Positions 944 through 17,200 of a stretch of DNA of 20,714 bases are shown here, piece after piece. Origin of the DNA: a virus. The stretch is from positions 1-20,714 of the IMG/VR virus record IMGVR_UViG_3300020214_000153; one strand, given 5' to 3'. The notes under the pieces are model-generated. The model worked only from the letters and a program-made list of their open reading frames with translations, ran no database searches and was not told the DNA's origin. A program made the translations under genes and the position numbers. The number at the start of each line of letters is the position of its first letter. The stretch's first letter is position 1.

Positions 944-2710
944 TTATACGGTGTCAAGATCACTGATAAGAACTTTTCCATAGAATTCGGGGCGCACTAC
1001 CTTCTTAGCGTAGCGGGTCATTACGCCTCTACGTGGTGTGAAGTTAGTTGGGTCATAAACCAATGGAGTTTGGATTAGTGGAATATATGGAGCATATACT
1101 GCACCGGTTTCTAGGAAGTTGCTTCCACGGAAACCAACCAAGATTACGTTATCAGTCATGTATGGGTTCTTGTAAACTTGGAAGCGACTTGCGAAGCTAC
1201 CAACACGACTTACACCCATTGCGAACTTAGCTTGATCACCATCTGTGTTAACAACATAACCTGGGATTGATTCCAAGATAGTTGCTACGTCTGGTGAACA
1301 TACTAGGAAGTTTGCACCACCACGTAGAGTCAATTGGTGAATCTTGTTTGAGACCTTTTGGATCTTGTTACCAAGAGTTTGGAACCAAGTGCTCTTAACG
1401 TAAGCAGTACGATTTGGTGAGCTGTTAACTACACGGGTGAAGTTAGCAACCGGAGTACCTGTTGTACCACCACCTGCAAAGCTTAGAGTCTTAGTGAACT
1501 CAGTACCAATTTGGGCTGACCAAGCTTCGGTAGTAGTACCAGTTACGGACTCGTTCAACATGTCTAGGATTTCGAGGTCGATTTCCATAGATACATATTC
1601 ACTCAATAGAGCAGTAAGTTCTGCTTCTGCATCGATGGAATGATATGCGTTCAAGTCTTGAGCCAATTCTGGAGTCCAGACTGCTTTCAACTTACGGGTC
1701 TTAGCAACTATTGGTTCGCTGTTTAGTACCAAGTTTACTTCAGGAATACTGATATCGTCACCGATAGGTTGTGTAGCGGTACCAGCAGCATTACCAGAAC
1801 CTTCACCTGCGGTCTTACCAGCTTCAAAGTCACCACGGCGATTATCTGTAGGTTGAATTGTGTAGTTCAACTTTGGAGTTTGTGCTGGGGTAGCAGCGGT
1901 ACTTGATTGACTTACGAACAAGTTAATTACGTAGTTTGGTGCAGCAATAGTACCTGTATTTACTACGTTGGCGTAGGTGTTTAATACAGTTAGGCCTACG
2001 TTACCCGTAGTTTGCAGACCAAATGAACGTACTGCGTTCAAGTCAGCATTCCATACATAACCAGCAGCGGCTAAAGATCCGTTTGTGGCTTGAGTATTGT
2101 CGTTAATATCTAGAGCAATCTTGAAGACACCCTTAACATTAGTGCCTGACAATGAGGAGCTAAATGCTGAATCAAATTGTAGATCTTTCCAGCTTGCGGA
2201 AGTTACAGTTGCGTTTGCGGATGTGAATGCTGAACTCGTTACTACACGTTCAGAGTAAGCAAAACGACCTTGACCGTATAGACCATTTACTGCTGCATCG
2301 GTTGAACCGAACTTAGCAGAATTGGTACCACCGAACAAGCTAGTGCCTGGGGTTTGACCCAACTTACCAGTACCATACTTAAAGTCTAAGTAAAATACTA
2401 GACCGGATGGTAAATTCATTGGTTGAACGCTTACGAATTCCTTAGCAGCAATTTCAGCGAATACACGGCGAACTAATGGTAGAGCAACGCCAGCCCATTG
2501 TTCTGAACTGGTTGATGTACCAGTTGTAGAAGCTTCATCTAGCAATTGCTTTGCTTGGTTTTCTAATAGGATTGACATGTGTGCCTTTTCAACACCAGTT
2601 ACGCCTTCAAGAAGGCCTGTCTTTTCCCACTTAGTTTGTAATCCACGGGTTTCGGCCATCAATTTGGCTTGTGGATTCATATTATTTGTTAATAGACTTT
2701 TTACATCCAT
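944..2710 (-). CDS. 23: Major capsid protein (T4 gp23-like)
   Basis: This 588-aa protein forms the hexameric shell of the head. It matches T4 gp23 along its length: LVRRVFAEIAAKEFVSVQPM (about 79-98) corresponds to the T4 segment LVRRAIPNLIAFDICGVQPM; KLKAVWTPELAQDLNAYHSIDAEAEL (about 343-368) is the conserved P-domain stretch; and YAPYIPLIQTPLVYDP with MTRYAKK near the C-terminus is diagnostic. It is longer than T4 gp23 (521 aa). The extra length is mostly a Gly/Ala/Thr-rich region around residues 190-320, where T4 has its surface insertion domain. Residues 1-59 look like a prosequence ending in LLDE59-A60, which fits the [LI]xE site cut by the gp21 protease. A good Shine-Dalgarno (AAGGA, 2724-2720) sits 9 nt before the ATG. 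It is the last gene before the hairpin terminator. Confidence 0.96.
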   Translation of the reverse strand: MDVKSLLTNNMNPQAKLMAETRGLQTKWEKTGLLEGVTGVEKAHMSILLENQAKQLLDEASTTGTSTSSEQWAGVALPLVRRVFAEIAAKEFVSVQPMNLPSGLVFYLDFKYGTGKLGQTPGTSLFGGTNSAKFGSTDAAVNGLYGQGRFAYSERVVTSSAFTSANATVTSASWKDLQFDSAFSSSLSGTNVKGVFKIALDINDNTQATNGSLAAAGYVWNADLNAVRSFGLQTTGNVGLTVLNTYANVVNTGTIAAPNYVINLFVSQSSTAATPAQTPKLNYTIQPTDNRRGDFEAGKTAGEGSGNAAGTATQPIGDDISIPEVNLVLNSEPIVAKTRKLKAVWTPELAQDLNAYHSIDAEAELTALLSEYVSMEIDLEILDMLNESVTGTTTEAWSAQIGTEFTKTLSFAGGGTTGTPVANFTRVVNSSPNRTAYVKSTWFQTLGNKIQKVSNKIHQLTLRGGANFLVCSPDVATILESIPGYVVNTDGDQAKFAMGVSRVGSFASRFQVYKNPYMTDNVILVGFRGSNFLETGAVYAPYIPLIQTPLVYDPTNFTPRRGVMTRYAKKVVRPEFYGKVLISDLDTV

Positions 2711-2761: not shown

Positions 2762-3883
2762 TTACTTCTTAATTCCTGCGAGCTTTTGGAATCTTGAAGC
2801 CATCACATCAGCTTGAGGTTCTACAATGGTAGATTCAGGCTTTGTGCTGGATACTGGTTTGCTTGCCAAACCTTCGGTGATAGTACTTACAGTTGCATTT
2901 GTCTTCTTTTTAACAACTGATCCACCTCCATTAATTGATTCGGCCAAAACTGTATATGCCAACTTGACTTCACGAATATTTTTAGTCAAGTCGAAAGTGT
3001 TAATAATCTTCAACTTTTGTTCTTCGGTCAAAGTCTTGCCCTTGAACAACTTGTTGGTGTATAGCAACTTAGCATTTAACAAATTGGTTTCTGATAGAAC
3101 ACCTTTCAAATACTTGACAGTTTCTACGTGTTCACTCAATTGGTTCTTCAATGCTTCGTTTTCTTCATTAATAGCTACTAGAGCTTCTGCCATTTCTTCA
3201 CAGGTTACATCCCCTTCAGATGGTGATGGAACTTGACCTGGGGCAGGAGCTGCGGATGCGGCTGGAACTGCTTCTGGAGCAGCTGCAGCTGGAGCAACAG
3301 GAGCGGCTGGAGCTGCTGGAGCTGCTACGGCAGCAGCGGCTGGATCGACGTTTTCTTCTTCAGTTTCTAGTTCTGCTAGAAGTTCATCTAAATTTACTGT
3401 TTCATCCATATCATCCATTTCCTCCAGGCCATCCGCATCTTTATTGATGCTTTCGTCTTTCTCTGGTTTGTCTGTGTCATCATGTCTGTGTCCGACCTCA
3501 CCTTCTAGCTCTGCTAGAATTTCTTCAAGTTCTTCGCTGGTTACTTCGGCACCCTCTTCTTCTTCAAGCTTAGCAACTTCAGTTTCGTTACCACTTGTTT
3601 CGGTTGATGTCTTGTTAGCCGAAGCAGATGGAGATTTTGGATGTTGCGTATCAGCAGTATTACCCTTTTCACCGCCGATACCGGATGAAGCTAACTTTTC
3701 TTCAACTTTACCTTCTTTAGTTTCGGTGTTTTCTTCTTCAACCATTTCTTTCTTGAGTTGGTCTGCGAACATTTCTTTCATGCTCTTAGCAAAATTTTCC
3801 TCAAGAAAAGTTTTTGCATTAGCAATTGCAGTTTCACGAACTGCCTTTGCGTCTGCGATGCTTTCCTTTAATAGATCGCTCAT
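2762..3883 (-). CDS. 22: Prohead core scaffolding protein (gp22-like)
   Basis: This 373-aa protein lies immediately upstream of the capsid gene, where T4 encodes its main scaffold gp22, and has the expected character: highly charged, helical and very acidic in the middle. The N-terminal third is helical and Lys/Glu-rich (LLKESIADAKAVRETAIANA). Residues about 95-180 are strongly acidic. Residues about 180-215 are an Ala/Pro linker. Residues about 225-330 form a second helical part, and the chain ends in a basic SRFQKLAGIKK. Scaffold C-termini commonly contact the capsid protein, so that tail may be the functional end. Many LxE tripeptides are present, as expected if gp21 degrades it during maturation. 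A Shine-Dalgarno AGAAAGGT (3900-3893) lies 9 nt before the ATG. The assignment rests on position and composition more than on residue identity. Confidence 0.8.
   Translation of the reverse strand: MSDLLKESIADAKAVRETAIANAKTFLEENFAKSMKEMFADQLKKEMVEEENTETKEGKVEEKLASSGIGGEKGNTADTQHPKSPSASANKTSTETSGNETEVAKLEEEEGAEVTSEELEEILAELEGEVGHRHDDTDKPEKDESINKDADGLEEMDDMDETVNLDELLAELETEEENVDPAAAAVAAPAAPAAPVAPAAAAPEAVPAASAAPAPGQVPSPSEGDVTCEEMAEALVAINEENEALKNQLSEHVETVKYLKGVLSETNLLNAKLLYTNKLFKGKTLTEEQKLKIINTFDLTKNIREVKLAYTVLAESINGGGSVVKKKTNATVSTITEGLASKPVSSTKPESTIVEPQADVMASRFQKLAGIKK
3230..3347 (-). repeat. Ala/Pro low-complexity coding repeat in the scaffold gene
   Basis: This stretch consists of degenerate GCN/CCN codon repeats (repeated GCTGGAGC-type units on the plus strand) and encodes an Ala/Pro linker in the scaffold protein. 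Its G+C is visibly higher than in the surrounding DNA. It probably arose by codon-repeat expansion and separates the acidic middle from the C-terminal helical part. Confidence 0.6.
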
Positions 3884-3991: not shown

Positions 3992-4032
3992 TAAAATGCA
4001 TAATATATTAAAAAAAATCATATTTATTGTAT

Positions 4033-4644
4033 ATGCCTGCTAAAAGTGAAAAACAAGCAAGACTATTCAGATTAGTACGTGGATTACAAAAAGGTGATAT
4101 ATCACCAAATAAAGTATCTCCACAAATTCTTAAAATGGCAAAAACAATCAAACCAACTAGTGTGAATCATTTTATCAAAATTAAAGAAATACTTCACAAA
4201 TTAAAAGAAGGATACAAAGAAAGTGGATCTGAATATACTCTTAGTAAGGCAAAAGAAATCATTGATAAACCGTTTGACCAAGTATTAAGAGAAAATGTTG
4301 GTCTACCATTTAATCAAAAAGAATTATTAGTATTTCAATCCAAACAAAATGGATTTGCTGGGTTTGGAAAAACAAATTTTATACACAAAAGAAGCACCGG
4401 TGAAATCATCGCGGATATACATAGTAATGATTCTTCAAAAAAATTTGTCTTCAAAAAGTTAGCCAATAATCAAAATAAAGGTCTTTATAACTATGCTTGT
4501 TTTATCAGAATTATGTCAGATGATACAGATAAACCTGAAGATAAAGTGTTTTATACACTAAGTAATATTTTTGAAGATGATGAATCTGGGAAAACCAAAG
4601 TCTTATCAGACTTTATTGATAGAATTAACTCATATGGCCTATAA
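4033..4644 (+). CDS. Hypothetical protein, DUF3008-like N-terminus
   Basis: This 203-aa protein is counted from the ATG at 4033; a TTG two codons upstream is the only longer option. It begins MPAKSEKQARLFRLVRGLQKG, which resembles the small phage/bacterial family described as DUF3008 (typically MPAKSxxQ-hydrophobic-G). Function is unknown. A basic helical N-terminal part (about 1-90) is followed by a more mixed part with KFVFKKLANNQ and a C-terminal acidic stretch (DDTDKPEDK). No signal peptide or membrane segment is seen. It is on the opposite strand to the whole head module and reads away from the scaffold gene. It overlaps the next gene by 11 bp, so the two are probably co-expressed. No clear Shine-Dalgarno is visible. 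Confidence 0.78.
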   Translation: MPAKSEKQARLFRLVRGLQKGDISPNKVSPQILKMAKTIKPTSVNHFIKIKEILHKLKEGYKESGSEYTLSKAKEIIDKPFDQVLRENVGLPFNQKELLVFQSKQNGFAGFGKTNFIHKRSTGEIIADIHSNDSSKKFVFKKLANNQNKGLYNYACFIRIMSDDTDKPEDKVFYTLSNIFEDDESGKTKVLSDFIDRINSYGL

Positions 4645-5065
4645 TTATAATCCAAAATTTAAAAATTACATTGAATCACAAGATAGTAATTTGAAATTTA
4701 TTATTAATAAAGATAGAGATAATCATGATTTTAACTATAGACCTACAACTATGAAAATGAAAAACTTTCTTAATGTAGAAACTGAAGATAATCCTAAATA
4801 TAAAATAATGGATATCGATAATCCAAACGGATGGTCATTTAATGAACTTGATACATTAGGTCACATGGGGTTCAAAATGGATAATGACTATGATATGACC
4901 TGCGAAGTAGAGATTCCATCACTTGAAATGGAAAATGAAAAACAATTTGTTAAGATTTATAAAGAAGAAGACGGATATGTTTTAGAAACAACTCGTCGTT
5001 ACGTATTTGAAAGTTTTAATAAACTATTGGAATTTATTGATAATATTCCAACAAAGATATTTTAA
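4634..5065 (+). CDS. Hypothetical protein, plus-strand pair member
   Basis: I do not recognise this 143-aa protein. The ATG at 4634 (MAYNYNPKFKNY) is preferred: the frame can be extended to an ATG at 4571, but that part lies wholly inside the preceding gene and reads like an out-of-frame translation of it. The protein is acidic and rich in Asn, Asp and aromatic residues, with no evident motif, signal peptide or membrane helix. The C-terminal half (VKIYKEEDGYVLETTRRYVFES) looks like strands followed by an amphipathic helix, suggesting a small globular domain. Its stop codon overlaps the stop of the convergent minus-strand gene, so the two transcripts run into each other without a visible terminator. 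Confidence 0.72.
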   Translation: MAYNYNPKFKNYIESQDSNLKFIINKDRDNHDFNYRPTTMKMKNFLNVETEDNPKYKIMDIDNPNGWSFNELDTLGHMGFKMDNDYDMTCEVEIPSLEMENEKQFVKIYKEEDGYVLETTRRYVFESFNKLLEFIDNIPTKIF

Positions 5066-5526
5066 TTAGGTTGGTCGATATCTCTTGAAGAAACAATGCT
5101 AACTGAATCAGGTCTACCTTGTACTTGATACGATTGAGGAGATTCCGTAATTGGATCCGCAATCTCAAAATAACGTTCTAGTTTCATACCGATTTCTTCA
5201 TAAAGCATTTCAAGTTTGTGTTCTATTTCTTTAATCTTTTGTGATTCTTCGTAAAGTTTACCGGCCATCCTCTTTACTTCTTTCATATCACGTTCAACCA
5301 TCTTAGCTTCCATCCAATCACCACACTCCTTTAGTGTGTAACGCTCGGCTAAATTAATCACATCAATAATTTTATGTGCTGTTTCATAAATAGATTCAGC
5401 CTTTAAGCTCTTGCGATATTCATTATAAGCTTTGATGGTTTCATATAGCTTTACTTTTTCTTCTTTTGTAAGAGGAGTATAAGCAACTTCGGTTGAATTC
5501 TCTACTAGATGTTTTAGCTTTATCAT
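5062..5526 (-). CDS. Hypothetical helical protein with capsid-targeting-like N-terminus
   Basis: This 154-aa protein of unknown function lies just downstream of the prohead protease gene (22 bp gap). Most of it is predicted helix with heptad-like spacing (about residues 20-120), rich in Glu and Lys, and includes KEVKRMAGKLYEESQKIKEIEHKLEML. This suggests a coiled coil. The last 30 residues are less structured. The start MIKLKHLVEN resembles the starts of two other proteins in this window and the T4 internal-protein capsid-targeting sequence, with a possible gp21 site after LVE9. It could be a prohead core or internal head protein, in line with its place between gp21 and gp22. Its stop overlaps that of the convergent plus-strand gene. 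Confidence 0.75.
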   Translation of the reverse strand: MIKLKHLVENSTEVAYTPLTKEEKVKLYETIKAYNEYRKSLKAESIYETAHKIIDVINLAERYTLKECGDWMEAKMVERDMKEVKRMAGKLYEESQKIKEIEHKLEMLYEEIGMKLERYFEIADPITESPQSYQVQGRPDSVSIVSSRDIDQPN

Positions 5527-5548
5527 ATGAATATAAATATTAGTTAAA

Positions 5549-6151
5549 TTACAATTCGGAAAGAATATTATGAATTAATCTTTCTGCATTTGTATAAGGA
5601 TTTACGATAATTTTATTATCTACACTTTCGTTGATTTTACCTTGTGGATACATGAATGCACCTTGTGTGCTTGGATTGCTTACAAAGTCAAAAGCAATTA
5701 AATCAAAATCATCTTGTACAATATCAGCACCTTCACGCATATCTTTCTTTACACTACCTAGACCACGACTACTAATACCCAATAGAATACCAGATTGTAA
5801 TAGATCTTTTAAAATATTACCACTGGGTGTAGGAAGAATTTCTACAGTACCAACCAAATCTTTACCATCCCATCCCATGTCAACAATGTTATGGCTAACA
5901 TTCTTTAAATTAACAACGGACGATTCTGGATGGTCAAGTTCGCCCATAGCACGACGTTGCTTTACAAAGTTTTCCATATACTTGTCAGCTTCACGTTTTA
6001 ATACGTCTTCTGGATATAAACGACCATTTTGGTTCTTTGCGTCAGCACGTTGTAATACTCCACTAACTAATAATTTGCCGTCTTTTAAAGACTCATTTAA
6101 TGAAGTTTTTTTAAATTTGAATGGTAATACATCAATTAATATTTGTTTCAT
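5549..6151 (-). CDS. 21: Prohead maturation protease (T4 gp21-like)
   Basis: This 200-aa serine protease of the prohead core (T4 gp21 family, herpesvirus-assemblin-like fold) cleaves scaffold, capsid protein and internal proteins after [LI]xE before DNA packaging. The catalytic histidine is probably H74 in GELDHPES and the nucleophile S127 or S128 in LLGISSRGLGS; both surroundings are typical of the family. The length matches T4 gp21 (212 aa). The ATG at 6151 is chosen over one 18 codons upstream, because the latter would overlap the preceding gene by 53 bp while 6151 leaves one base after its stop. Possible self-cleavage sites are SLNE20-S and INE175-S. It follows the 362-aa gene and precedes the 154-aa gene, in the T4 order portal, core proteins, protease, scaffold, capsid. 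Confidence 0.94.
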   Translation of the reverse strand: MKQILIDVLPFKFKKTSLNESLKDGKLLVSGVLQRADAKNQNGRLYPEDVLKREADKYMENFVKQRRAMGELDHPESSVVNLKNVSHNIVDMGWDGKDLVGTVEILPTPSGNILKDLLQSGILLGISSRGLGSVKKDMREGADIVQDDFDLIAFDFVSNPSTQGAFMYPQGKINESVDNKIIVNPYTNAERLIHNILSEL

Positions 6152-6152
6152 A

Positions 6153-7241
6153 TTAAGCAGTAGGTTGAGTTCCTGGTGGCTTTTCACCAGCGGTTTGTTT
6201 AGCAACTGCAGGCTCGTCAGATGTTACAACATTTGATGGTTGTGTAACAACTTGTTTATTTGGATCAACCAAAGCCTTTGATTTAGCAATTTGATATTGA
6301 TCTTTAGGTTTCACATCTGCCTTTCCTAAAATTCTGATTTTAAATCCTGGTTTAATAAAGAACTTAGCAACTTTTTGTTTACTTTCTTCACGACCCGTTA
6401 TTACAATTACATATCTATCATAATAATAATCAATATTTACTCCTGTAACGTTGATTGTATAATCTGCTTCTGGTTGTTTATATCCCTTACTAGCACGCAC
6501 AACTATCTTTTTATCCAAAATAGCATCTTGAATTTTTCTTTGTAAATTAGTCTTTAATTGTTCAGTACTATCCTTTAATTTTGAATCAAAATCTGTAAAA
6601 TCGGTTTGTACATTATACGATTGAACATTTATATCTACATTTGATGTTTTTGGTTTTGTTGCGACTGGATTAGGTTGAGCTGTTGACGCAGCGGTTGCTG
6701 GTTCCGCAACTGGTTGACCTTCAACTTCATGTTGTAATTTATAAATTAAACCACCAACGCCTTCTTTACGTATTTTTTTGACAAGTTTAATAGCTTGTTC
6801 GGTCATTGGCAATTGACCTTGTTCATGACCTGCTAAACCAGGATCCAATTCAGGATCACCATGTTGTACTAAACCATTTTGATCTCTATAGGTAGATACT
6901 GGTTCAATATTTTGAGCAGGTGTTACATAAGCTGGTTCACTATACATTTGATTTTCCAACTTATAATTTTGACTTTTTTTAACTTTCTTAGTAGGTGTAA
7001 ATCCGGCTTGATGTACAACGCTTGGTCTAGCACCTTTTCTATTAAAAGCAAATGGTGTAGTACCAATATCACCACCCATATGCGCTCCGCCTGTAGCAAC
7101 GCCCATAGTGCCCGTTGTACTAGCCTCATTCTTCTTTAACTCGGCATCTACCTGATTTTCTATTTTTTCACGATAAATTTGAGCATATTTTTTTACAACT
7201 TCTCCAAACGAATCGCTAGACTTTTTAAGATGATTTTTCAT
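6153..7241 (-). CDS. Hypothetical prohead-region protein, 362 aa
   Basis: I do not recognise this protein. It lies between portal and protease genes, where T4 encodes small core proteins gp67 and gp68, so a prohead or internal head role is plausible. The N-terminus is basic and helical (MKNHLKKSSDSFGEVVKKYAQIYREKIENQ). Residues about 40-190 are disordered-looking, Gly/Pro/Thr-rich with GVATGGAHMGGDIGTTPFAF. Residues about 210-320 form a compact mixed alpha/beta part with DYTINVTGVNIDYYYDRYVIVITGR. The C-terminus is again Pro/Thr/Ala-rich. There is no signal peptide or membrane helix. Its start overlaps the preceding gene by 17 bp and its stop is one base from the gp21 start, so the three genes are almost certainly translated from one message. 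Confidence 0.82.
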   Translation of the reverse strand: MKNHLKKSSDSFGEVVKKYAQIYREKIENQVDAELKKNEASTTGTMGVATGGAHMGGDIGTTPFAFNRKGARPSVVHQAGFTPTKKVKKSQNYKLENQMYSEPAYVTPAQNIEPVSTYRDQNGLVQHGDPELDPGLAGHEQGQLPMTEQAIKLVKKIRKEGVGGLIYKLQHEVEGQPVAEPATAASTAQPNPVATKPKTSNVDINVQSYNVQTDFTDFDSKLKDSTEQLKTNLQRKIQDAILDKKIVVRASKGYKQPEADYTINVTGVNIDYYYDRYVIVITGREESKQKVAKFFIKPGFKIRILGKADVKPKDQYQIAKSKALVDPNKQVVTQPSNVVTSDEPAVAKQTAGEKPPGTQPTA

Positions 7242-8100
7242 TTTGAATCTTATTCAGTTCCTCAATTAATTCATATGCAGTTAAGAGTGATGTCAATTGG
7301 TTTTCTTTTACCAATCCATTTATGGTTTTATTTGAAAGTTGTGTAATAGTCTCGTTTAATTTAATCTTAATAATATCATTATTAACAATCTTAGATGAAC
7401 TTTCTTTCAATATACCAGATACTCTTTTGTATTCAAGATTCACAAATTCAGTAAATTTATTTGTATTTGATACATTTGTGATATATTCTTTCAACAAACG
7501 TTTTTGGTCAGGTAGTAAATTACTATACTTTTTGTTGAAGTTTTCAATTAGGAACTTATAAGCAATCAAACGAACTTCAGCAGTTTGAGAACTATACAAA
7601 TCAAGTGGTTGTGATTCATTCTTTTTTATCTTAGTCAAATTCTCAACAACATATTCTCTTGATTCGATTAATTCTTCCACCCCAAACTTTACCTCATTAA
7701 CATTTTCATTTTCAAACAATTTATATATTGATGCATACAACTTATAATTTGGAATCTTATTCTTTAGGAACTCATCGATATTATACTTTTCTTTTATTTC
7801 TTTTACCAAATTATACTTTTGTTTATTTAATTCACGACTATTAATCTTAGAACGAGTCTGCAAAACAACATCTAAAATACGATCTGCCGATTCTGGATTC
7901 CTAGAAGATTGTGATGATATAAAGTTGTATAATTGGAACTCTTTACCCAACTCCTTTGACTCGTTGAAATAATTGAACATTAGATTTTTCGTGAATGTTT
8001 CATCACGTCCGGCAAGAATATCAGACGTTATTTGTCGGGTAAGTAATTCAAATAGCACTCCGCTATTTTTAAACTTAGAATGTTTCGCTTTCTTATGCAT
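7225..8100 (-). CDS. Hypothetical prohead-region protein, 291 aa
   Basis: This protein of unknown function is encoded directly after the portal gene. The ATG at 8100 (MHKKAKHSKFKNSGVLFELL) is chosen; a TTG three codons upstream is possible but weaker, and GGAA just before the ATG can serve as a weak ribosome site. The protein is almost all helical and Lys/Asn/Glu-rich, without cysteines, membrane segments or recognisable catalytic motifs. The basic N-terminus (KKAKHSKFKNSG) suggests contact with nucleic acid or an acidic partner. By position it replaces T4 gp67/gp68 but is much larger. A TATAAATA octamer 47 bp upstream suggests its own late promoter. The last 17 bp overlap the start of the next gene. 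Confidence 0.82.
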   Translation of the reverse strand: MHKKAKHSKFKNSGVLFELLTRQITSDILAGRDETFTKNLMFNYFNESKELGKEFQLYNFISSQSSRNPESADRILDVVLQTRSKINSRELNKQKYNLVKEIKEKYNIDEFLKNKIPNYKLYASIYKLFENENVNEVKFGVEELIESREYVVENLTKIKKNESQPLDLYSSQTAEVRLIAYKFLIENFNKKYSNLLPDQKRLLKEYITNVSNTNKFTEFVNLEYKRVSGILKESSSKIVNNDIIKIKLNETITQLSNKTINGLVKENQLTSLLTAYELIEELNKIQNEKSS

Positions 8101-8146
8101 AAGTTCCAATTAAATATAAATATATGTAAAGATTAAAATTATTCGC

Positions 8147-8154
8147 TATTTATA
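8147..8154 (-). promoter_or_regulatory. T4-type late promoter octamer
   Basis: The minus-strand octamer TATAAATA is identical to the T4 late promoter -10 consensus recognised through gp55. It lies 46 bp before the ATG at 8100, in the gap after the portal stop. The reverse form TATTTATA occurs 24 nt further on. In AT-rich DNA single matches are weak evidence, but its intergenic position supports it. Confidence 0.5.
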
Positions 8155-8162
8155 CTTTTCTT

Positions 8163-10040
8163 TTATTCTTTTATATTATTTTCGTCCATAAAAGATGGTT
8201 TTTTTACAGACTCTTTCAAAACTTCCTTGGTTTCGAAATCTTTTAACAAAACCGACAATGACTCTAGCGACAACGGTGATTTATTTTTATATTTGTGCGT
8301 TGGTGATAAATCGCTAACTCTCTTGTTTTCTAAATTACCAAATGGGTCTTCTCCGAATGGGTATTTACTAGCATCCTTTCTACCAGTTTGATCTCTTTTC
8401 TTTTCAGTTAATTTTGGAGTTTCACTTCCACCACCAGATGATTCTGGGGGTGTACCACCAGCCTCACTGCCAGACTCAGTTCCTCCAGTTTCGCCACTAC
8501 CCGCATCTCCACCAGTATCAGTGCCTCCAGATTCTTCTCCCTTTGATTTTAAGAATGCTAAAGCTGGATCATTACCATCTTCTTCAATTTGTTTAAATCT
8601 ATAAATTCCTTTAGCATCATCGATTAATTGTTTTTGTAAATTAATCATATCTTGCTCAGACATGCTAAATACGTTATCATAAATCCATTTTTTGCTGAAC
8701 AATTTTTGTTCTTGCATGTCTTTGGCTACTTCTACTTTGCTTTTCCAAACATCAATCTTTTCCTTTTCAAAGATAGTAGATGGGTTTGTTAATTGTAAAC
8801 TAAAGTCTACCAACGATTCATCTCTATATCCTTGACTATACAAATGAATTACCGCAATCTTGTTCAATTCACTAACAATAATACGTTGTACACGTTGAAT
8901 TGTTCTAGCAAAACGAATATCTTCAGCCGCCAATGTAGCCTTACCAGATAATGATTCATCATACCCCAAGAATGCCTTTGGAATCTTAAGTGCTGACATC
9001 ATCTTATTGCGTAGATATTCAATATCATCTGTACCTGTCCATTCTAGTCCAGGCAAATTATCAATACTTGTACCACTATCGCCACCACGAACTGGTAGGA
9101 AAAAGTCTTCAACCATGTTTTGAAGGTTAAAACGTAAATTATAGTCACCAGTTTGTTGATCCAAATATGGAGTCTTTTTCATTTGCGCAATAATTCGTTC
9201 CATGTGATTATCAACTTCATTTGGAGGAATATTACCAATATCGACTTTAAAAATACGTTTTTCTGGAGCACGCATGATGCGATGAATCAACATTGCATCT
9301 TCCATTAAACTCAATTGTTTCCAAACACGGCGAGCACCTTCTAACATACTCTTACCATAAGGTAAGAAGTTACTATCACTCAGTAAACGAAAGTGTGCAA
9401 TTTGATAGTTCTCAAGATCTTCAATTTTATTACCATATGGAAGATTAACTTGAAACTTAACAAAATTCTTATTTTGTAGATGTGCATTTTCAATACGAGT
9501 AACATAATATGAACTAAGTGGTTCAACCATGTATACGCCATATTCTGGACTGATATGTAACCTTAAATAAAAATCGCCATACTTGACCATGCTACGAGTC
9601 CAAGACCAAAGATTAAACTCAATATTAAGAATATCATAAAATAAATTGTTTAATATTTGTTTGATATCATCATTCGAAGATTGAACAGAGATAATGTCAC
9701 CCAATTCATTTTTACTTGTACATTCATCCGAATAAATGTCTAATGCAGATGCGAGAATTGGATCCATATCCATTGTATCATAATCGCGAAATAGTTCTAC
9801 ACGACTACTTTGATAGCTAAGATTAAAGTCACGGGTATATTGATTATATGCGGTAGTTCTAAGACGATTAAAACGATCTCTTAAACTATTACGATCTGTA
9901 GCATATTGAATTTCATCAGTGTCAATTACCTTTAATTTCTTACCACCAATATTACGTACAATAACATCATTACTAAAAAGACGTTTTAATCTTGCAAAAA
10001 GCGATCTATTCTTTAATTCTTGAAATGATTTATCAGTCAT
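8163..10040 (-). CDS. 20: Portal vertex protein (T4 gp20-like)
   Basis: This 625-aa protein forms the dodecameric ring at one head vertex through which DNA enters, and it nucleates prohead assembly. Family features are clear: MDMDPILASALDIYSDECT (about 90-108), the core segment with GKSMLEGARRVWKQLSLMEDAMLIHRIMRAPEKRIF (about 230-265), and LRNKMMSALKIPKAFLGYDESLSGKATLAAEDIRFARTIQR (about 343-384), the typical helix leading into the channel. T4 gp20 has 524 aa. The surplus is a C-terminal tail, which starts with a Gly/Ser/Glu/Thr low-complexity stretch (about 498-545) and ends in a more normal helical segment (about 585-615). The start has GGTAAG as a modest ribosome site and a TATAAATA octamer 23 bp upstream inside the end of the terminase gene. 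Confidence 0.95.
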   Translation of the reverse strand: MTDKSFQELKNRSLFARLKRLFSNDVIVRNIGGKKLKVIDTDEIQYATDRNSLRDRFNRLRTTAYNQYTRDFNLSYQSSRVELFRDYDTMDMDPILASALDIYSDECTSKNELGDIISVQSSNDDIKQILNNLFYDILNIEFNLWSWTRSMVKYGDFYLRLHISPEYGVYMVEPLSSYYVTRIENAHLQNKNFVKFQVNLPYGNKIEDLENYQIAHFRLLSDSNFLPYGKSMLEGARRVWKQLSLMEDAMLIHRIMRAPEKRIFKVDIGNIPPNEVDNHMERIIAQMKKTPYLDQQTGDYNLRFNLQNMVEDFFLPVRGGDSGTSIDNLPGLEWTGTDDIEYLRNKMMSALKIPKAFLGYDESLSGKATLAAEDIRFARTIQRVQRIIVSELNKIAVIHLYSQGYRDESLVDFSLQLTNPSTIFEKEKIDVWKSKVEVAKDMQEQKLFSKKWIYDNVFSMSEQDMINLQKQLIDDAKGIYRFKQIEEDGNDPALAFLKSKGEESGGTDTGGDAGSGETGGTESGSEAGGTPPESSGGGSETPKLTEKKRDQTGRKDASKYPFGEDPFGNLENKRVSDLSPTHKYKNKSPLSLESLSVLLKDFETKEVLKESVKKPSFMDENNIKE

Positions 10041-10062
10041 ATCTTACCGCCATATATATAAG

Positions 10063-10070
10063 TATTTATA
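10063..10070 (-). promoter_or_regulatory. T4-type late promoter octamer before the portal gene
   Basis: TATAAATA on the minus strand overlaps the last codons of the terminase gene and ends 22 bp before the portal ATG at 10040. It matches the T4 late promoter consensus exactly. The RNA would have a leader of about 10-15 nt, enough for the GGTAAG ribosome site. Confidence 0.5.
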
Positions 10071-11679
10071 ACAACCAAGTTAAACTTTCTTTTTTACTGT
10101 TTATATTAGCATTTGGGTTGAAATCCCACCCTTCTGTAGGAGAACCAAATGGTTTTGTTAATATAGGAGAATTATGAACGCTGGATACTTTACTAATGCC
10201 TGCTAACATTTGTCTATTGTAAGCAATCTGATCATTTCTAAGTCTAAGTGCAGTTTCACGTACCCATAATCCTATTCCCATAGACATTACCAAATCATCA
10301 TTGTAGCCACGTAGTGCTTCTGCTTTTGGTCCATTCCAAATAAAAACATTCAACTCTTCATATAATCGTTTCGATTTAATAATTACTTGTTTTTGTCTAA
10401 AAAATAACTCCAAATTACTTACAACTAATGGTCTGTTTTTAGTAGTTGTAGTAAATCCAGCAACCATCTTTTTATCTTGTGCATGTAATTTGTTGCTATA
10501 TGTTTTTTCCACATCCACAATTGTGAGATCACTTGAACTATAAAACGTATGAGGATAATTTCTGTCAATAATCTGTTGAAGTGTACCCCAACCAACGTTA
10601 TTGTTTTCTACAACTAATAGTGCATTATTATATTCAGTAGCAATAGTTACTAATAGATTGCCATAATCTTTTGTAGTTAATTGCCCTTTATATTCTGCAA
10701 CTTGTTCCATAGTATCAACATCTATAACATGAAAAGCGCTGAAATCTGCACCATCGCCTCTAGCACAATCAGCTGTCACTAAATAATTCTTGCTATAATT
10801 TGGGTAATCCCATATCCATAAATCTTGATTATTACCTCGCCTTTCTATAGGATCTTTTATGTATGTTTGTTTATAAAATTCCAATACATCAACACTAACT
10901 ACTTGATTGCCTGATGTACTAAAATCACAATCACATTCTTGCGCAGCACCCTTTACACCTGATAATTCTGTCTGATTATCTCTCCACGATTGATCTCTTT
11001 CTGGATGTAAATGCCATGGCAATTTTATTGTTTTGAATCCTTTTTTACCAGACTTTTCGTTTTCTTCCGATTCAATCCATGTTTTATGAAAAAAGTTACC
11101 AACGCCGTTCGGTGTACTTAATATAATCGATCTACCACCAGTAGATAAAGTATATTGTGATGATAACCAAATTTCTTCTATACCATCAATAAACGCAGCT
11201 TCGTCTATAATTAACAATGATAATGCTGATGAACGACCTGCTGTGCCAGCCGATGAGACAGCTTTAATTTGTGATCCATTCTTTAATCTCAGTGACAATC
11301 TATTATCTTCCACACATGGCACTTTTAACCAACTAGGAAGATTATCATTAGCAAATCTTACCTTGGTAACGATTTCCTTTGCGGTTTCCTGTGTTATACT
11401 AATACATAAAATATTCTTATCATTATGGAATGTCATTAACCATAAACTATAAGCAGCAGTAAGAGTGCTAATACCCATCTGACGACTTTTAAGAACAATG
11501 TTCAATTGATTATCAACAAAGTCTTGTAATGCCTTCTCTTGAAATGGATACAATTCAAATCCAACTGTACCACGTATGGGATGTTGAATCTTTACATACT
11601 TCTTTATGAAGTATATAGGATTTTCAATACATTTTTTATATTCTTGCTTTATTATCTCTCTTAAGTTTTGCTGACTCAT
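10066..11679 (-). CDS. 17: Terminase large subunit (T4 gp17-like)
   Basis: This 537-aa ATP-driven DNA packaging motor and headful nuclease docks on the portal. The N-terminal ATPase has an adenine-binding-region segment FELYPFQEKAL (41-51), a deviant Walker A KSRQMGIST (64-72, with the lysine at the front of the loop and Ile where T4 has the usual Lys), Walker B LLIIDEAAF (155-163, D159/E160) and the coupling motif STPNG (188-192). The C-terminal RNase H-like nuclease shows D304 (VTADCARGDGADFS), E358 (VVENN) and D461/D462 (GYNDDLVMS). All core elements are present, so it should be active. The ATG at 11679 overlaps the preceding gene by 44 bp, yet the N-terminal residues (NPIYFIKKYVKIQHP) are family-like, supporting this start. 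Confidence 0.96.
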   Translation of the reverse strand: MSQQNLREIIKQEYKKCIENPIYFIKKYVKIQHPIRGTVGFELYPFQEKALQDFVDNQLNIVLKSRQMGISTLTAAYSLWLMTFHNDKNILCISITQETAKEIVTKVRFANDNLPSWLKVPCVEDNRLSLRLKNGSQIKAVSSAGTAGRSSALSLLIIDEAAFIDGIEEIWLSSQYTLSTGGRSIILSTPNGVGNFFHKTWIESEENEKSGKKGFKTIKLPWHLHPERDQSWRDNQTELSGVKGAAQECDCDFSTSGNQVVSVDVLEFYKQTYIKDPIERRGNNQDLWIWDYPNYSKNYLVTADCARGDGADFSAFHVIDVDTMEQVAEYKGQLTTKDYGNLLVTIATEYNNALLVVENNNVGWGTLQQIIDRNYPHTFYSSSDLTIVDVEKTYSNKLHAQDKKMVAGFTTTTKNRPLVVSNLELFFRQKQVIIKSKRLYEELNVFIWNGPKAEALRGYNDDLVMSMGIGLWVRETALRLRNDQIAYNRQMLAGISKVSSVHNSPILTKPFGSPTEGWDFNPNANINSKKESLTWLL

Positions 11680-12283
11680 ATTTTGTTTCTAATTCACTAA
11701 TCTCAGCATCTATATTTTCTAATCTTTTTACTACGGCTGTTAAGTCTAACTCTATATTTTCACGGATTTTTGACATATCTGGCACTCCTTCCCAATGTTC
11801 TATAGATCCATCTTCTTCAAGAAATTCAACTGGTTTATTATGATTTTGGTCACACCAGTTTTTAGCCTCTTCAAATTTATTCTTATAATCCAACAATGCT
11901 GATTTTATATTCTTGAGTTCACGGATTTTGTTGAATGTATCCCAAATACCCAATTTTTTAAGATGAGTTTCTTCATTTATAAAACATTCATAACATAATC
12001 CAGACTTTGGCCATGTTCTATCATCCAAATAACTACCCCATCGAACATCCATATTGCAGTGTTTACAACGTTGTTCCACAACGATTGATGCTCGTTTTGA
12101 AACACGGCGTTTACTACCATTTTTCCAAATCCACTTCCGTCCCTGCCCATCCTCCCACTCATCACCTTCTTTGCGTTTACTATTTTCAAGATTAGAATCA
12201 TAACCAACTTGCACGAATGGACGATTACCATCCACGTAATCTTTAATAATATTGAGATTGCTTTTACCTAATGCTCTTTTCAT
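11636..12283 (-). CDS. Four-cysteine protein in the small-terminase position
   Basis: This 215-aa protein is not recognised by family. It lies directly upstream of, and overlaps, the large terminase gene, where T4 has its small terminase gp16. A zinc-ribbon or treble-clef-like motif is visible: C73-x2-C76, then 20 residues, then C97-x2-C100. The N-terminal part is basic with RKWIWKNGSKRRVSKR (about 49-64), suitable for binding DNA. The C-terminal part (about 150-215) is predicted helical with a likely coiled coil, which could mediate oligomerisation. T4 gp16 is also helical and oligomeric but lacks a zinc site, so a small-terminase role is only a positional inference; an HNH-like nuclease accessory or regulator is also possible. 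No Shine-Dalgarno is evident. Confidence 0.8.
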   Translation of the reverse strand: MKRALGKSNLNIIKDYVDGNRPFVQVGYDSNLENSKRKEGDEWEDGQGRKWIWKNGSKRRVSKRASIVVEQRCKHCNMDVRWGSYLDDRTWPKSGLCYECFINEETHLKKLGIWDTFNKIRELKNIKSALLDYKNKFEEAKNWCDQNHNKPVEFLEEDGSIEHWEGVPDMSKIRENIELDLTAVVKRLENIDAEISELETKYESAKLKRDNKARI

Positions 12284-12301
12284 AACAAATATGTATTTAT
12301 T

Positions 12302-13354
12302 TTATTTACCAAAACCACTTTGTAGTCCCCTAATAATGAAACTACCAGTTATTTTAAATGGCTTACTATGAATACTTGGATCTCTTACAACAATGCCTTC
12401 ATGTTTTTCTAGATCACCAATTTCACTAGTAGCATTCTTGAGAATTTCATCGCCCAACTTGATTGTAGTAATATAAACAATAATATCATTAACTATCTTG
12501 TCTATGTCTTGACCCTCAAAATCTTGCGTAATATTTTTACTTGCAGCTGCTTTCTGAAATTGTTCACGGGTAATTAACGGTGTTTGAATAGTTACATTAG
12601 TCAACCAATCTTTCAAACTCTTGGTTACTGGTTTTCCTTGAGGATACAATGTAACTTTTTCGCCCAATGGTTTTGAAAGATTTGGACGAGTTTTGAATTT
12701 AGTATCAACACTTCCTAATACTTTAAATCCATATTTCTTAGCAACCAAATTCAACTTATTGATATAAGATTGCATTGCGGTTTTATCATAAGAAATTTCA
12801 GTAGCTACTCTTGATTTGACACTACCGTCTTTACCAAATGTCTTTGGCTTTATTTCTTTTAAACCATGAATTGCCAAAAAGTTACCAATGTCTTCGTATC
12901 CAAGAACGTTTGTTTGTCCTTCAACATATTCAATGTTCAACAAAATGTTTGGATTGTTCAATAACCCAAGAGCTTTCAATTCGTTTTGAGTTGTTGGTAT
13001 AGCTTCATCAAATATTTGAATGACTCTGGTACCAATTTTAATGAACCCATGTTCTGAACCTGTTTCTTGATTTGGTAAAAATCTAGCACTTAGATCTTGT
13101 GGGCGCATTCCCTTAATGTCTAGTGGTTTCGCACTACCACGGTCCATCACAAATTCTCCATTGACTAAACGAATACTAGCATTGACACCATCAATCTTGA
13201 CACTACCAGTTCCTTTCTCCAACGATGCGATTGACTTTTGAAAAACGTTTATAAATTCTTTTGCAGTAGATGTAAAATCAAATGGATGCTCCATATGACC
13301 ACCAGCACCACCTTCTTTGAGAACTTCCGACAAAATATTACTTAGCTTTATCAT
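12302..13354 (-). CDS. Nucleotidyltransferase/nucleic-acid-ligase-like protein
   Basis: This 350-aa protein has signs of the covalent nucleotidyltransferase superfamily (DNA/RNA ligases and capping enzymes), which transfers AMP or GMP through a lysine. Candidate motif I is VKIDGVNAS with K53 as the nucleotide-accepting lysine. An arginine-containing strand with NGEFVMDRGS (65-74) follows. LNIEYVEG (139-146) fits motif III/IIIa, EGIVVRD (319-325) fits motif IV, and SKPFKITGS (330-338) fits motif V with K331 and K334. Spacing between motifs is longer than in minimal ligases because of a lysine-rich middle part (about 165-300). There is no OB-fold after motif V, as in some RNA ligases. The N-terminus MIKLSNILSEVLKEGG resembles a capsid-targeting sequence. 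The gene is joined to its upstream neighbour by a 4-bp ATGA overlap. Superfamily placement is fairly secure; substrate is unknown. Confidence 0.78.
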   Translation of the reverse strand: MIKLSNILSEVLKEGGAGGHMEHPFDFTSTAKEFINVFQKSIASLEKGTGSVKIDGVNASIRLVNGEFVMDRGSAKPLDIKGMRPQDLSARFLPNQETGSEHGFIKIGTRVIQIFDEAIPTTQNELKALGLLNNPNILLNIEYVEGQTNVLGYEDIGNFLAIHGLKEIKPKTFGKDGSVKSRVATEISYDKTAMQSYINKLNLVAKKYGFKVLGSVDTKFKTRPNLSKPLGEKVTLYPQGKPVTKSLKDWLTNVTIQTPLITREQFQKAAASKNITQDFEGQDIDKIVNDIIVYITTIKLGDEILKNATSEIGDLEKHEGIVVRDPSIHSKPFKITGSFIIRGLQSGFGK

Positions 13355-14118
13355 GGTTTAATAAATGTTTTTTCAAATGTAGACACACCCTTCAAATAAG
13401 AACGAGCAGTTTCATCAAGCGCGTTATCTGTAAATTGCCAATTCCAAAATAATTGATCAGGCGTTTTAAATCCAAAAAATTCTAGAACATTTTTTTGAAT
13501 TTCTGCTACATCTTTACCATTCCAATTTTGTCCCACAGCAATAAATCCGGCGTCAATATCTTTTACAATATTTTTTTCTCCTAGAGTTGAATGTCTATTT
13601 TCAATCCAAGTTAGTCTTTCTATAAGTTTTTGATAATAACTGTTAGCTTGACCCCATCTTATACTAGCAAAAAATACTACACAATCGCTTTCAAATAATT
13701 CTTTACTAATTTTCCATAATTCATCACTTTTATCATTGTAACTTGCCCAACAACGATGATATCCACTTGGATTCTGATCTTTGTTTTTTAATAAAGAACC
13801 AATCGTTCCACAATGATTACCACCAAACTCTTTGTTACTACTTACGTTACCTTCACATGGAACAATATGCAACTTAGTAGTGTCAATTAAGGTTACCTTT
13901 TCTTTGCCAAGTAATTCTTGAATTTTGATAGCTAGTTGGCTACTTTTTGGAACGTCTTCTTTGTGTTTGACCCATCTGTTGCTAGTGGTTAATAATAAAA
14001 TTTTGTTTTTACTACGTAAATAATCTATGGTTTTCTTGTATTTTTTGGCATACAAGTCCATATCTTGCTCGCTAATTGGTAACTTAGCTTCTATTAGTAG
14101 GTCTGAAAGACTAATCAT
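13351..14118 (-). CDS. Flavodoxin-fold (NADPH-dependent FMN reductase-like) protein
   Basis: This 255-aa protein looks like a flavodoxin-like alpha/beta protein. After a 35-residue N-terminal extension, a strand and loop KILLLTTSNRWVKHKEDVPKS (39-59) would bind the flavin phosphate. CVVFFASIRWGQANSYYQKLIERL (146-169) matches the second flavin-contact loop of FMN reductases, where a strand is followed by a P/S-x-W/Y-x-G-x segment and a helix ending in a bulky acid/arginine pair. Cysteines 88, 103 and 123 do not form the compact cluster of iron-sulfur flavoproteins. Role is unknown; NAD(P)H:flavin or quinone reduction is an inference. The first residues MISLSDLLIEAKLP resemble a capsid-targeting sequence with a gp21 site after LIE10. 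The stop overlaps the next start (ATGA). It is the first gene after the sheath terminator. Confidence 0.75.
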   Translation of the reverse strand: MISLSDLLIEAKLPISEQDMDLYAKKYKKTIDYLRSKNKILLLTTSNRWVKHKEDVPKSSQLAIKIQELLGKEKVTLIDTTKLHIVPCEGNVSSNKEFGGNHCGTIGSLLKNKDQNPSGYHRCWASYNDKSDELWKISKELFESDCVVFFASIRWGQANSYYQKLIERLTWIENRHSTLGEKNIVKDIDAGFIAVGQNWNGKDVAEIQKNVLEFFGFKTPDQLFWNWQFTDNALDETARSYLKGVSTFEKTFIKP

Positions 14119-14161
14119 CGCTTATAAATATGTAAATTATAATAAAAATAATATATATAAA

Positions 14162-14210: not shown

Positions 14211-17200
14211 TTATTCACCGAAACTAGCACCAGTTGGTAGAATGTTGAAGTCAAGGATAATGAATTCAGCAGTTCTAGCTGGTTGGATGAAGATTTGACC
14301 ATAAAGGATATTTCTATCAATTAGGTCAGGTGTATTGTTTTGTTCATCCATCTTAACTTGGTAAGCATAGATACCATTACGTTGTTGTACAGATTCTAAA
14401 TATGGATTTACGATACTCAAGAATCTATTACGTGTAGCAGCTACGTTTTGTTCGAATACCAAGTATTTGCTTGAACTTGCGATAAACTTCTTCAAGTTAA
14501 TCAACAAGCGACGAACATTGATACGATCCAAAGCGCTTGGAGCAATTTGTAGAGTCTTTTGACCCCACACACAGATACCTTGACCTGGAAAGGCTGCGAT
14601 TGGATTTACACGACCTTCGTACAATTCATCACGTTCACTATGTGTAGTTCTATCCAGAACTTGTACAGCGATTGGAATACCACCACGATTTAGACCAGCA
14701 GGAGCATACCATTCAGCAGATGCATTATCGTTAGCAGCATAAACTGCTGGTAATACCACTGAAGGAGGTACACTAATAATCTTGTTGGTATTAGTATCTA
14801 GAATCTTTACCCATGGATAATATGTAGCAACATAGTTACTATCAATTGTAGCGACTGAGTTGACGGCGGCATCAATCAATCCGACAGTTTGGTTACTTGC
14901 TGGGAACACGACGTTATCCATGATATAGAAACAATCACCACGAGCTTCGCACATATCGATTGTAATTTCAGTTACGTAGCTGTGTTGTTCACGGAAGATG
15001 CCAGGCAATACAATCAAGTTGATATCAAATTCATCCGCATTACCTAGAGCAGCGATACATTGTTTGTATGCAATACTACCTGGACTATTGATATTTGTAC
15101 AATCTAGACCTTGTGTATTACCAGCGGTAATATCACTTCCTAGAGCGATTGGAATTGATGGCCATTTACCATCAAATCCACCTTGGAATCCCACTAGGAA
15201 CTTACGTAGTTTTACGTATGTAGATTCATTAACTGGATCATAGTTACTTGGAATACTACCACTCAGGGATGGATCTAGTAGTGAACCAGTACCATTTGCA
15301 TAGAACTTGGCGTTTTGAGTACCTCGAGTCTTGTCTTCCAAGTCAAAGTCAATATTTATACCATTTACGCTACTTGGCAATGGTTTGAAATATTCGTCGG
15401 TATCGTTATATACACCAACATTTGCTGAAGAAGTTGGATACAAAGATACCAATTCATCGTCGGCTTGAGGTACGTCGTTGAATACTGTACCACAACTATA
15501 TTTACCAGGCGCTAGAGACCAGATACTTGCTTTGCTATATCTGACCGGAGGAATAATATCTGCTAAAGTACCAGCGACTGGAGTAGAATATGATTCAAAT
15601 CCATATGGTACAGATACTTCTGGATATAAACCATCAGCCATTTCAATTCTGATGAATTGACTCAAGTTAACATATGTACCAAATTCGATGATTTTACCAG
15701 CGAATGTGATGTATGCGTAACGATCACCAATTCTACGTGCAATGAAGTTTGCACTATCAGGATTTAAATTCAAGTTTTGATAAATTTCCAAATACTTTGG
15801 ACGTTTATCTGTGTCACTATAAGCACGAACTGCAAGTGAGAATGAACCCCAATCACTACCTGGGACTGTACCAGCCAACTTAACGTTGCTGATTTCAATC
15901 TTGTATTTCTTGTTACTCAACGTACCATCACTTAGTGTATGTATCTTGAACAATTGATACTTGGTTGGTACTGCGGATTCATTTGCACTACCTCTAAATG
16001 GAGCAATCTTTTGTGAGTAGATCCATGGAGTATATGCATTAGTGATACTAAATTGACTATCACCCGCAGTAAGATTTGTGCTGTATTGGTCAACAAACTT
16101 TAATGGTTCACCAATTGCAAATCCAGCTTCTGGAGCTGTATTTGCTAGCAACTTCCAACCACCGCCTTCAGCACTTGGACGAGTCTTTTCAGCGACAAAT
16201 CTTTGAATACTATCTTGGAACAACATGTAGTTGTAAGCAGCTTCTACTTTTTGACCAGCAACTTGTTTTGCTGGGTTACCAGCGGTTGGATCAAATCCAA
16301 ATACATTTCCAACGAAATTATTATCACTCTCATTTAGGGTGAAGTCATAATAACCATATGTTCCTGCACTTGTGGTACCATCATCATTTGCGAAGCTATA
16401 CTTTAAGATTAGTTGATATGCATTTTCATTTGGATTAATCAATCCCTTATATGGGAATACTGAACTTGTTAGTTGACTTAGTGTTGATGTATCAAAACCA
16501 TATACTTCATATCTATTGTTGAATTGTGAAGAAGCATTTTGAGTATTATTCAATACTGCCAATACCATCTTGCTTCTTGCAGATGAATTTGGGTTACATG
16601 GATCACCACCAGATGTGTCTTGATTTGTGAATGTACCATCAAAATCACCATAAGCACCAGCTACTAGACCCAAGAATTGTAGACTTGATCCACAGGTGCT
16701 TGCACCTCTAATAGACTTGAAACTTGCACTATGTAGTGATAATGTACCATTTACATCAAATGTGGTTGTATCATAATCCAAACTTACCTTCGCACTTGAA
16801 GTCATAGATGCGGACAAATAAGCTACCGTTTCAGAGCTTTCATTAAATGCCGTAGCAATCTTAGTCTCGGGTGTTACGTTTTGGTTTTGTACACTAGAGG
16901 TCAAATAATAGTATCCAGCAAAAATTCCTGCTGTTGGCGTTGTACCGGTGATCTTTCTTAGCAAATATGTATTTGCGCCCGATGAATTGGTGGTGCTAAC
17001 AGTACCCAGTGTTACTTGTTTACCCGCGTATAGTACTGATCCACTCAAAAATCCACCCGTACCATTATAATTACTATAATAAACCGCTGTTGCTGCTTTT
17101 GGTGCGAACTTACCACTTACAATACCATTTACTCTTAAACGTGATGTATCATGTCTGTATGTAAATACTGCGTCTGACTTTGAACTGCTAATACTAGCAT

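Follow-up and report, generated by a model that had tools for sequence, protein, structure and literature searches.

Enzymes bearing a leader that resembles the T4 capsid-targeting sequence are probably carried by a freshwater phage and its relatives

The window studied here is the complete virus record IMGVR_UViG_3300020214_000153 (20,714 bases), whose minus strand holds a T4-like head-gene block. Three proteins of this strand begin alike: a flavodoxin-like, flavin mononucleotide (FMN)-reductase-like protein of 255 amino acids (aa) (13351-14118 (-), start MISLSDLLIEAK), an RNA-ligase-like protein of 350 aa with a K53-IDG motif (12302-13354 (-), start MIKLSNILSEVLKEGG), and a 154-aa protein (5062-5526 (-), start MIKLKHLVENSTE). 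The initial annotation had likened these starts to capsid-targeting sequences (CTSs) cut by the prohead protease gp21, which it placed in the window, and had suggested packing in the prohead core, trimming and injection with the DNA. Its premises hold: MISLSDLLIE-A, MIKLSNILSE-V and MIKLKHLVE-N are all encoded where claimed, and a gp21-type protease lies at 5549-6205 (-) (PF03420, E 2.9e-29; likely start MKQILID at about 6151, by inspection). With slashes for predicted cuts, the leaders are MISLSDLLIE/A in the flavodoxin-like protein (14089-14118 (-), conserved in alignment), MIKLSNILSE/VLKE/GG in the ligase-like protein (13313-13354 (-), from alignment and model) and MIKLKHLVE/N in the 154-aa protein (5500-5526 (-), a pattern found in 47/47 family members). 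Details depart from the annotated scheme: the 154-aa protein has its Glu at position 9 rather than 10, followed by N, and the ligase-like protein has an additional, more canonical site, LKE-14/GG.

The surrounding block comprises the tail sheath (14211-18146 (-)) and the portal (8163-10040 (-)), both named from position and sequence look, the terminase large subunit (10066-11679 (-)), a gp22-like scaffold (2762-3883 (-), start MSDLLKE/S), named from position and composition and without a match in a PHROG search, and the gp23 major capsid protein (944-2710 (-), phrog_138, 9.8e-70), which has a likely maturation site LLDE/ASTTG by inspection. Among 50,697 phage records, the nearest relatives of the terminase are those of Microcystis phage Mel-JY01 (55.5%) and Flavobacterium phage immuto (50.3%).

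Are the alike starts more than coincidence? A T4-type CTS is an N-terminal peptide of 10–20 residues that is hydrophobic at positions 4, 7 and 8 and has a Glu near position 10, and the three starts fit this description, the 154-aa protein with Glu at 9. According to the accessible part of PMC9026906, residues 4 and 7 of T4 IPIII are the main determinants of targeting and residues 8 and 10 those of processing, and Asp10 permits targeting yet inhibits processing. From these mutational data we built rule R1 (M1, hydrophobic residues at positions 4, 7 and 8, and E at position 9 or 10); rule R2 also permits the first hydrophobic residue at 3. R1 matched 3 of the 17 open reading frames (ORFs) of the window, against a mean of 0.06 after shuffling residues 2-15 (0/300 shuffles reached 3), and 0 of 86 internal Met positions. 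Since 3/86 of these positions match R2, that rule alone is weak within the window. Moreover, the window starts were already known when the two rules were devised, so that the tests on other genomes are those that count. PHROG and Pfam searches gave no family over the cut-off for any of the three proteins (for the ligase-like protein, one PHROG match at E 0.0097).

R2 matched 10 of 265 called ORFs in T4 (shuffle mean 3.4), including IPII, IPIII, Alt and gp24, 6/208 in cyanophage Syn9 (1.5) and 8/222 in immuto (2.4). Two controls in which a PF03420 search gave no match, and which thus lack a detectable gp21-type protease, were not enriched (SPO1, 2/198 against 2.2; crAss001, 1/101 against 1.4). 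Six contigs of the window's clade gave 9/119, 8/124, 5/105, 6/125, 8/96 and 8/92, with shuffle means of about 0.8-1.2; their internal Met positions matched in 7/513, 6/480, 3/326, 1/296, 4/344 and 1/282 cases, respectively. These contigs are not independent because they have homologues in common. A first-ATG ORF caller returned nearly identical R2 counts in the genomes and contigs tested. PF03420 matched in 10/10 relatives' contigs, in T4, immuto, Mel-JY01, Syn9 and S-SM1, and in the L418 contig.

At the level of protein families, we grouped 1414 distinct proteins (from 305 loci and contigs) by similarity beyond residue 16 and counted families with at least three members. Among the 88 families, an R2 start was never found in 77, was rare in three (1/62, 2/48 and 1/7), and occurred in at least half of the members in eight. 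Every member has it in the families of the 154-aa (47/47), GP88-like (5/5) and 155-aa (3/3) proteins. The other five families are those of the ligase-like protein (47/51), the flavodoxin-like component (57/67), a 96-aa protein (20/21), a J-domain protein (3/4) and a 200-aa protein (4/6); in the 200-aa family the residue at the cut is E or D (LMEND, LMDNQ). When one random member was drawn per family (n = 88), 7.4 matched R2 against 0.81 after shuffling and 0.67 expected from the internal-Met rate, and 0/2000 shuffles reached 7. The flavodoxin-like component is impure, also holding a 173-aa protein apparently linked through a fused ORF. Of its ten exceptions, four have an additional residue (LLLQEA), three were assigned an upstream ATG by the caller, one is a truncated gene and two are the 173-aa protein.

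The family counts bear on another explanation, in which the alike starts reflect codon bias near start codons in a genome that is AT-rich and poor in Shine-Dalgarno sites, an A/T-rich ATG-ATA-AAA-CTA style aiding initiation. Strong Shine-Dalgarno sites (at least 4 bases) do precede just 16-26% of the ORFs in the clade contigs, and MI and MK starts use A/T-rich codons. However, the pattern is never seen in 77 of 88 families from the same genomes, shuffles of residues 2-15 that keep composition fail to reproduce it, and it recurs on T4 head proteins. In addition, L4, L8 and E10 are invariant in a flavodoxin-like alignment that was not filtered by either rule, and the codons for these residues vary among R2-positive members. 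The family-level test and the shuffles make codon bias a most improbable cause.

That alignment contains 19 sequences including the window's: M1, I2, L4, L8 and E10 are invariant, D6, L7 and A11 nearly so, and positions 3, 5 and 9 vary. An AlphaFold model built from the 19 sequences has a predicted local distance difference test (pLDDT) score of 65, with residues 1-14 below 50. Foldseek matched it to FMN reductases (E 1.4e-4) and VIA to RosB (Z 13.1; 180 residues aligned from residue 37, root-mean-square deviation (rmsd) 3.7) and ArsH (Z 12.7); among the VIA matches listed, 49 of 50 begin at residues 36-40 and one at residue 4. The predicted fold is that of NAD(P)H:FMN reductases, on a model of pLDDT only 65, which suggests that the protein is an FMN-reductase-like enzyme. 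We scanned 84,980 bacterial and archaeal genomes with two conserved peptide patterns and obtained 21 cellular loci with 50-61% identity to the protein. In 20 of these loci the cellular match starts no earlier than phage residue 13, and in the remaining one at residue 9; no leader was found upstream in any of the 21 loci (printed ORFs read by eye). Judged from these sequences, the leader is an added element of the flavodoxin-like protein, absent from it outside such phages. A tblastn search with this protein and the ligase-like protein found no homologue at 1e-5 among the 50,697 phage records, and a PDB sequence search gave nothing useful for either.

The ligase-like protein shows the motifs of RNA ligases. 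Members of the RNA ligase/covalent nucleotidyltransferase superfamily have a KxDG nucleotidyl-lysine motif followed by a conserved E and K; in 18 sequences including the window's, K53-I-D-G56, E142, E319-G320 and K334 are invariant. At the second cut site of the leader, E14 is nearly invariant and G15 and G16 are invariant. The AlphaFold model (18 sequences, pLDDT 77) falls below 50 at residues 1-19. Foldseek gave no match at E 0.001; its best, T4 Rnl2, had E 8.6e-3, and methyltransferases stood at ranks 3 and 4. When VIA re-compared the Foldseek matches, 50/50 of those listed were RNA or DNA ligases starting at residues 11-19, the best with a middling Z of 8.1 (187 aligned from residue 13, rmsd 4.2). 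Pfam RNA_ligase matched at E 0.073, below the family cut-off. Together, motifs and model suggest an RNA-ligase-like enzyme. With the threshold relaxed to E 10, tblastn against the phage records gave only a Mel-JY01 match covering 25% of the query (E 1e-3) and another at chance level. In the Mel-JY01 protein, cytidylyltransferase-like and ligase-like parts are fused with IIAE/GGLGGHM between them, the ligase-like match being weak (E 1e-3). Separately, one homologue (L098:3225-4577) has a C-terminal extension of about 100 residues joined via FKLKE/SYDSN, another gp21-like site.

According to the accessible text of PMC3037559, S-SM1 virion proteomics detected the putative cytidylyltransferase T4-GC190, the cluster to which the S-SM1 record assigns SSM1_190. 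This protein starts MKKFSAFLNEAERS (MKKFSAFLNEA), placing F4, F7, L8 and E10 where IPIII has Y4, F7, I8 and E10; its Syn9 orthologue gp184 (68% identical) starts MKKFSAFLSEA. The neighbour SSM1_189 matches phrog_455, as does the Syn9 DUF6267 protein gp183 (PF19782, 1.1e-98). Across 45 IMG/VR loci, 21 of 24 distinct cytidylyltransferases, identified by sequence pattern, have the leader. In L413, L418 and L420, the loci of the three leaderless ones, it is the DUF6267 protein that has the leader. All eight distant DUF6267 loci (L413-L420) carry an R2 leader on that protein, with starts such as MITFKNFLTEA, MFAFASFLTEQ and MITYQDYLTES (L413 and L414 have the same leader; L416 is cut by the contig end), and none of the five cyanophage-type DUF6267 proteins examined does (13 of the 45 loci viewed). 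Across loci the leader is thus switched, as the gene sequences read, between the partner enzymes, and one tagged partner could suffice to carry both. The ligase-like protein itself had no Pfam match to DUF6267 (PF19782) up to E 0.1; hhalign gave probabilities of 0.8-7.9% (E 0.0044-0.07), and hmmsearch reached 1.2e-4 for one protein only (a ten-sequence set, with the Mel-JY01 sequence inside the profile), the reverse search giving nothing below 0.15. By eye, HxxH precedes KxDG in both. These likenesses suggest a homology that is as yet unproved.

Leader genes also cluster. In locus L037, five consecutive genes between sheath and terminase start MILLTRIVED, MISLNNILNE, MISLNDLLLE, MIRLNNILKE and MIRLNNILSE, in that order. 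The window holds two of the five, those of the flavodoxin-like and ligase-like proteins, and many of the 39 distinct neighbourhoods surveyed have fewer leader genes than L037. The fourth gene encodes a J-domain protein (PF00226, 2.1e-9 in the L030 homologue). Elsewhere, leaders occur on a GP88 protein of L192 (PF17338, 7.4e-32), on a 5'-nucleotidase-like protein of immuto (gene 184, annotated start MKKVMGNLADLLLEES), on Mel-JY01 proteins starting MIKLKSLLQE, and on a Mom-like protein (L162:12018-12767; PF25680, 1.1e-24; leader MIKLKELILEG). The last would be an odd cargo if it acted on DNA ahead of packaging. The leader is common to otherwise unrelated proteins, with folds known for some of them only. 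We had also considered the 155-aa leader proteins of G007 and G008 (VYRGVNPAYG) as ADP-ribosyltransferases; Pfam, PHROGs and a PDB sequence search gave no support. PADLOC found no family for seven leader proteins at E 0.01, and an alignment-based IMG/VR rescan returned close relatives only.

That several of these genes adjoin the tail sheath gene raises the possibility that the leader is a docking tag for the tail, the baseplate or a replication compartment, or a membrane anchor. The pattern, however, fits the T4 gp21 substrates IPII, IPIII, Alt and gp24, and the 154-aa leader gene adjoins gp21 itself; a short peptide ending in Glu is also unlike the usual membrane anchor. A destination other than the head is very unlikely.

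The 154-aa protein is a different matter. Because its gene sits in the slot between gp21 and gp22, it probably belongs to the prohead core and is less likely to be cargo; a gp67/gp68-like role is inferred from gene position. The same slot favours a broader alternative, in which the leader docks assembly helpers on the prohead core or scaffold that are then expelled or retained in the head, none being injected; most T4 core fragments do exit the head, according to the accessible part of PMC9026906. Against this stand the enzyme-like or chaperone-like folds of other leader proteins (FMN reductase, RNA ligase, J-domain, Mom-like). We know of no scaffold with such folds. The presence of the cytidylyltransferase in S-SM1 virions (PMC3037559, as far as its accessible text goes) also speaks against a purely helping role, which we regard as unlikely, though less so than a destination outside the head.

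We consider it highly probable that the shared N-terminus is instead a T4-type CTS on enzyme cargo. The initial annotation proposed capsid targeting for all three proteins. Comparison supports it well for two, the flavodoxin-like and the ligase-like; the 154-aa protein, with the same kind of leader, is better read as part of the core, and trimming and injection are predictions. Targeting is favoured by the fit to the key T4 residues and the lack of enrichment in the two controls without a detectable gp21-type protease, by the leaderless cellular homologues of the flavodoxin-like protein and the run of different leader proteins, and by the finding of another leader-bearing enzyme in virions of a T4-like cyanophage.

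Several observations weigh against this conclusion. In T4, just 4 of the 10 R2 matches are head proteins for which processing is documented, the remainder including gp2 and 61.1, and the rule misses IPI, gp22, gp23, gp67, gp68 and gp21; R2 is therefore neither complete nor clean. Only three of the six Syn9 matches are annotated genes with that start. Mel-JY01 gave 6/240 against 2.2, a count reached by 10/300 shuffles, and the 303-kb contig G001 gave 5/389 against 2.1 (reached by 19/300), no clear enrichment. The L413 contig (G011; 145,707 bases, perhaps a fragment) gave no PF03420 match though leader-bearing proteins are present; its head protease may have diverged or lie outside the fragment. 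The residue after the predicted cut (P1') is V in the ligase-like and N in the 154-aa protein. Four of the 51 ligase-like proteins escape the rule, two starting MIKISKLLVSLFENKK, one MIKLNDILNK and one at an upstream start picked by the ORF caller. The flavodoxin-like model has other stretches of low pLDDT besides the leader, and SSM1_190 is not homologous to the window's enzymes.

How would such a leader work? The peptide, amphipathic and roughly ten residues long, with hydrophobic residues at 4, 7 and 8 and Glu10, would dock its protein on the prohead core, and gp21 would cleave after the Glu while the head matures. The trimmed enzyme would be retained in the head alongside the DNA and, by analogy with T4, would probably enter the host with it. 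From the same short tag on several enzymes and its resemblance to the T4 capsid-loading tag, it follows that this freshwater virus of bacteria and its relatives probably carry ready-made enzymes, and perhaps inject them. A bolder proposal, to which we give a little less than an even chance, is that aquatic T4-like phages have a general enzyme-injection system: interchangeable leaders on unrelated enzymes, several of them encoded in a cassette-like block between sheath and terminase, with the ligase-like protein and its cytidylyltransferase partner as a widespread cargo in which either partner may be tagged, repairing or rewiring the host at DNA entry.

Other features of the window and its relatives deserve mention. 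A TATTTATA box lies 4 nucleotides before the flavodoxin-like start (14123-14130 (-)) and 5 nucleotides before that of the 154-aa protein (5532-5539 (-)). In the six clade contigs (of G001-G008), TATTTATA on the sense strand often ends 2-7 nucleotides before an ATG (85/247 sites against 1/247 in the opposite sense); in T4, TATAAATA instead stands 8-40 nucleotides before ATG (22/32). The box may be a late promoter variant yielding almost leaderless mRNAs. The motif EASTTGT is common to a 362-aa protein before gp21 (6153-7241 (-)) and to gp23, as KKNEASTTGTMG and LLDEASTTGTST, as though gp21 cleavage gave the two an identical mature start. Between the 154-aa protein and gp22 lies an insert of two plus-strand genes (4027-5065 (+)), the first containing MPAKSEKQARLFRLV (phrog_28725, 2.4e-5), and G003 carries a similar insert. 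A GIY-YIG homing-endonuclease-like gene follows gp23 (97-834 (-); PF01541, 4e-10), and a carbamoyltransferase gene lies near the sheath gene (18747-20387 (-); PF16861, 2.3e-50). G001 (L146-L161; GC 0.41) has the same head genes as the clade and few leader starts. In immuto (L199, 7294-30468), further recurrent N-termini near head genes, MKKSQLRQIIKEAL-like and MENFDLKKFLVENKLTTNSKILKEN-like, may be additional leader types missed by R2. In Mel-JY01, three genes close to one another (60276-62718, L200:10276-12718) begin almost identically, with MIKLKSLLQEIISDRVWHLTT or a variant of it, and look like paralogous cargo; Pfam gave no match for the one member examined.

To our knowledge, little is known about what, other than DNA, is injected by the T4-like phages that live in lakes and seas. 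A leader recognisable in the sequence would give, for each genome, a list of candidate injected proteins, here FMN-reductase-like, RNA-ligase-like, J-domain and Mom-like proteins and others. In T4, injected Ip1-Ip3 block host restriction enzymes (PMC12373910, accessible text), and the use of CTSs by T4-like phages to load various proteins has already been proposed, as the accessible part of PMC9026906 states. The mechanism is thus known from T4; its use on enzymes, the block of leader genes and the switching of the tag from one partner enzyme to the other were not found in the literature listings. No paper on leaders of aquatic-phage enzymes was recognised among the matches listed, a search at the level of titles and listings, with subscription papers and preprints outside it.

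In phage P1, the head proteins DarA and Hdf have propeptides and are targeted and trimmed by a head protease. Giant phage SPN3US likewise targets and trims head proteins with its head protease; in the sources as far as accessible, several of its propeptides exceed 100 residues, and the likeness is one of description rather than sequence. T4 itself is closer. Like IPI-IPIII and Alt (PMC9026906, accessible part), the proteins described here, though otherwise different, begin with a leader of some ten residues that is hydrophobic at positions 4, 7 and 8 and has Glu10, in a genome that encodes gp21. Unlike the T4 internal proteins, they have the leader MI[KSR]Lxx[LI]LxE rather than MKTYQEFIAE, enzyme-like cargo of 255 and 350 aa rather than the 100 and 193 aa of IPII and IPIII, and, in relatives, runs of as many as five leader genes between sheath and terminase; judged on length, they fall outside the class of small basic internal proteins (about 8-20 kDa). 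Closest in cargo is the cytidylyltransferase of S-SM1 and Syn9 (T4-GC190, gp184), a nucleotidyltransferase with an IPIII-like leader, MKKFSAFLxEA, found in S-SM1 virions (PMC3037559, accessible text). In these phages the cytidylyltransferase has the leader and its DUF6267 neighbour lacks it, the reverse of the arrangement in L413, L418 and L420. The detection of this leader-bearing enzyme in virions shows that a cyanophage already available would serve to check the idea.

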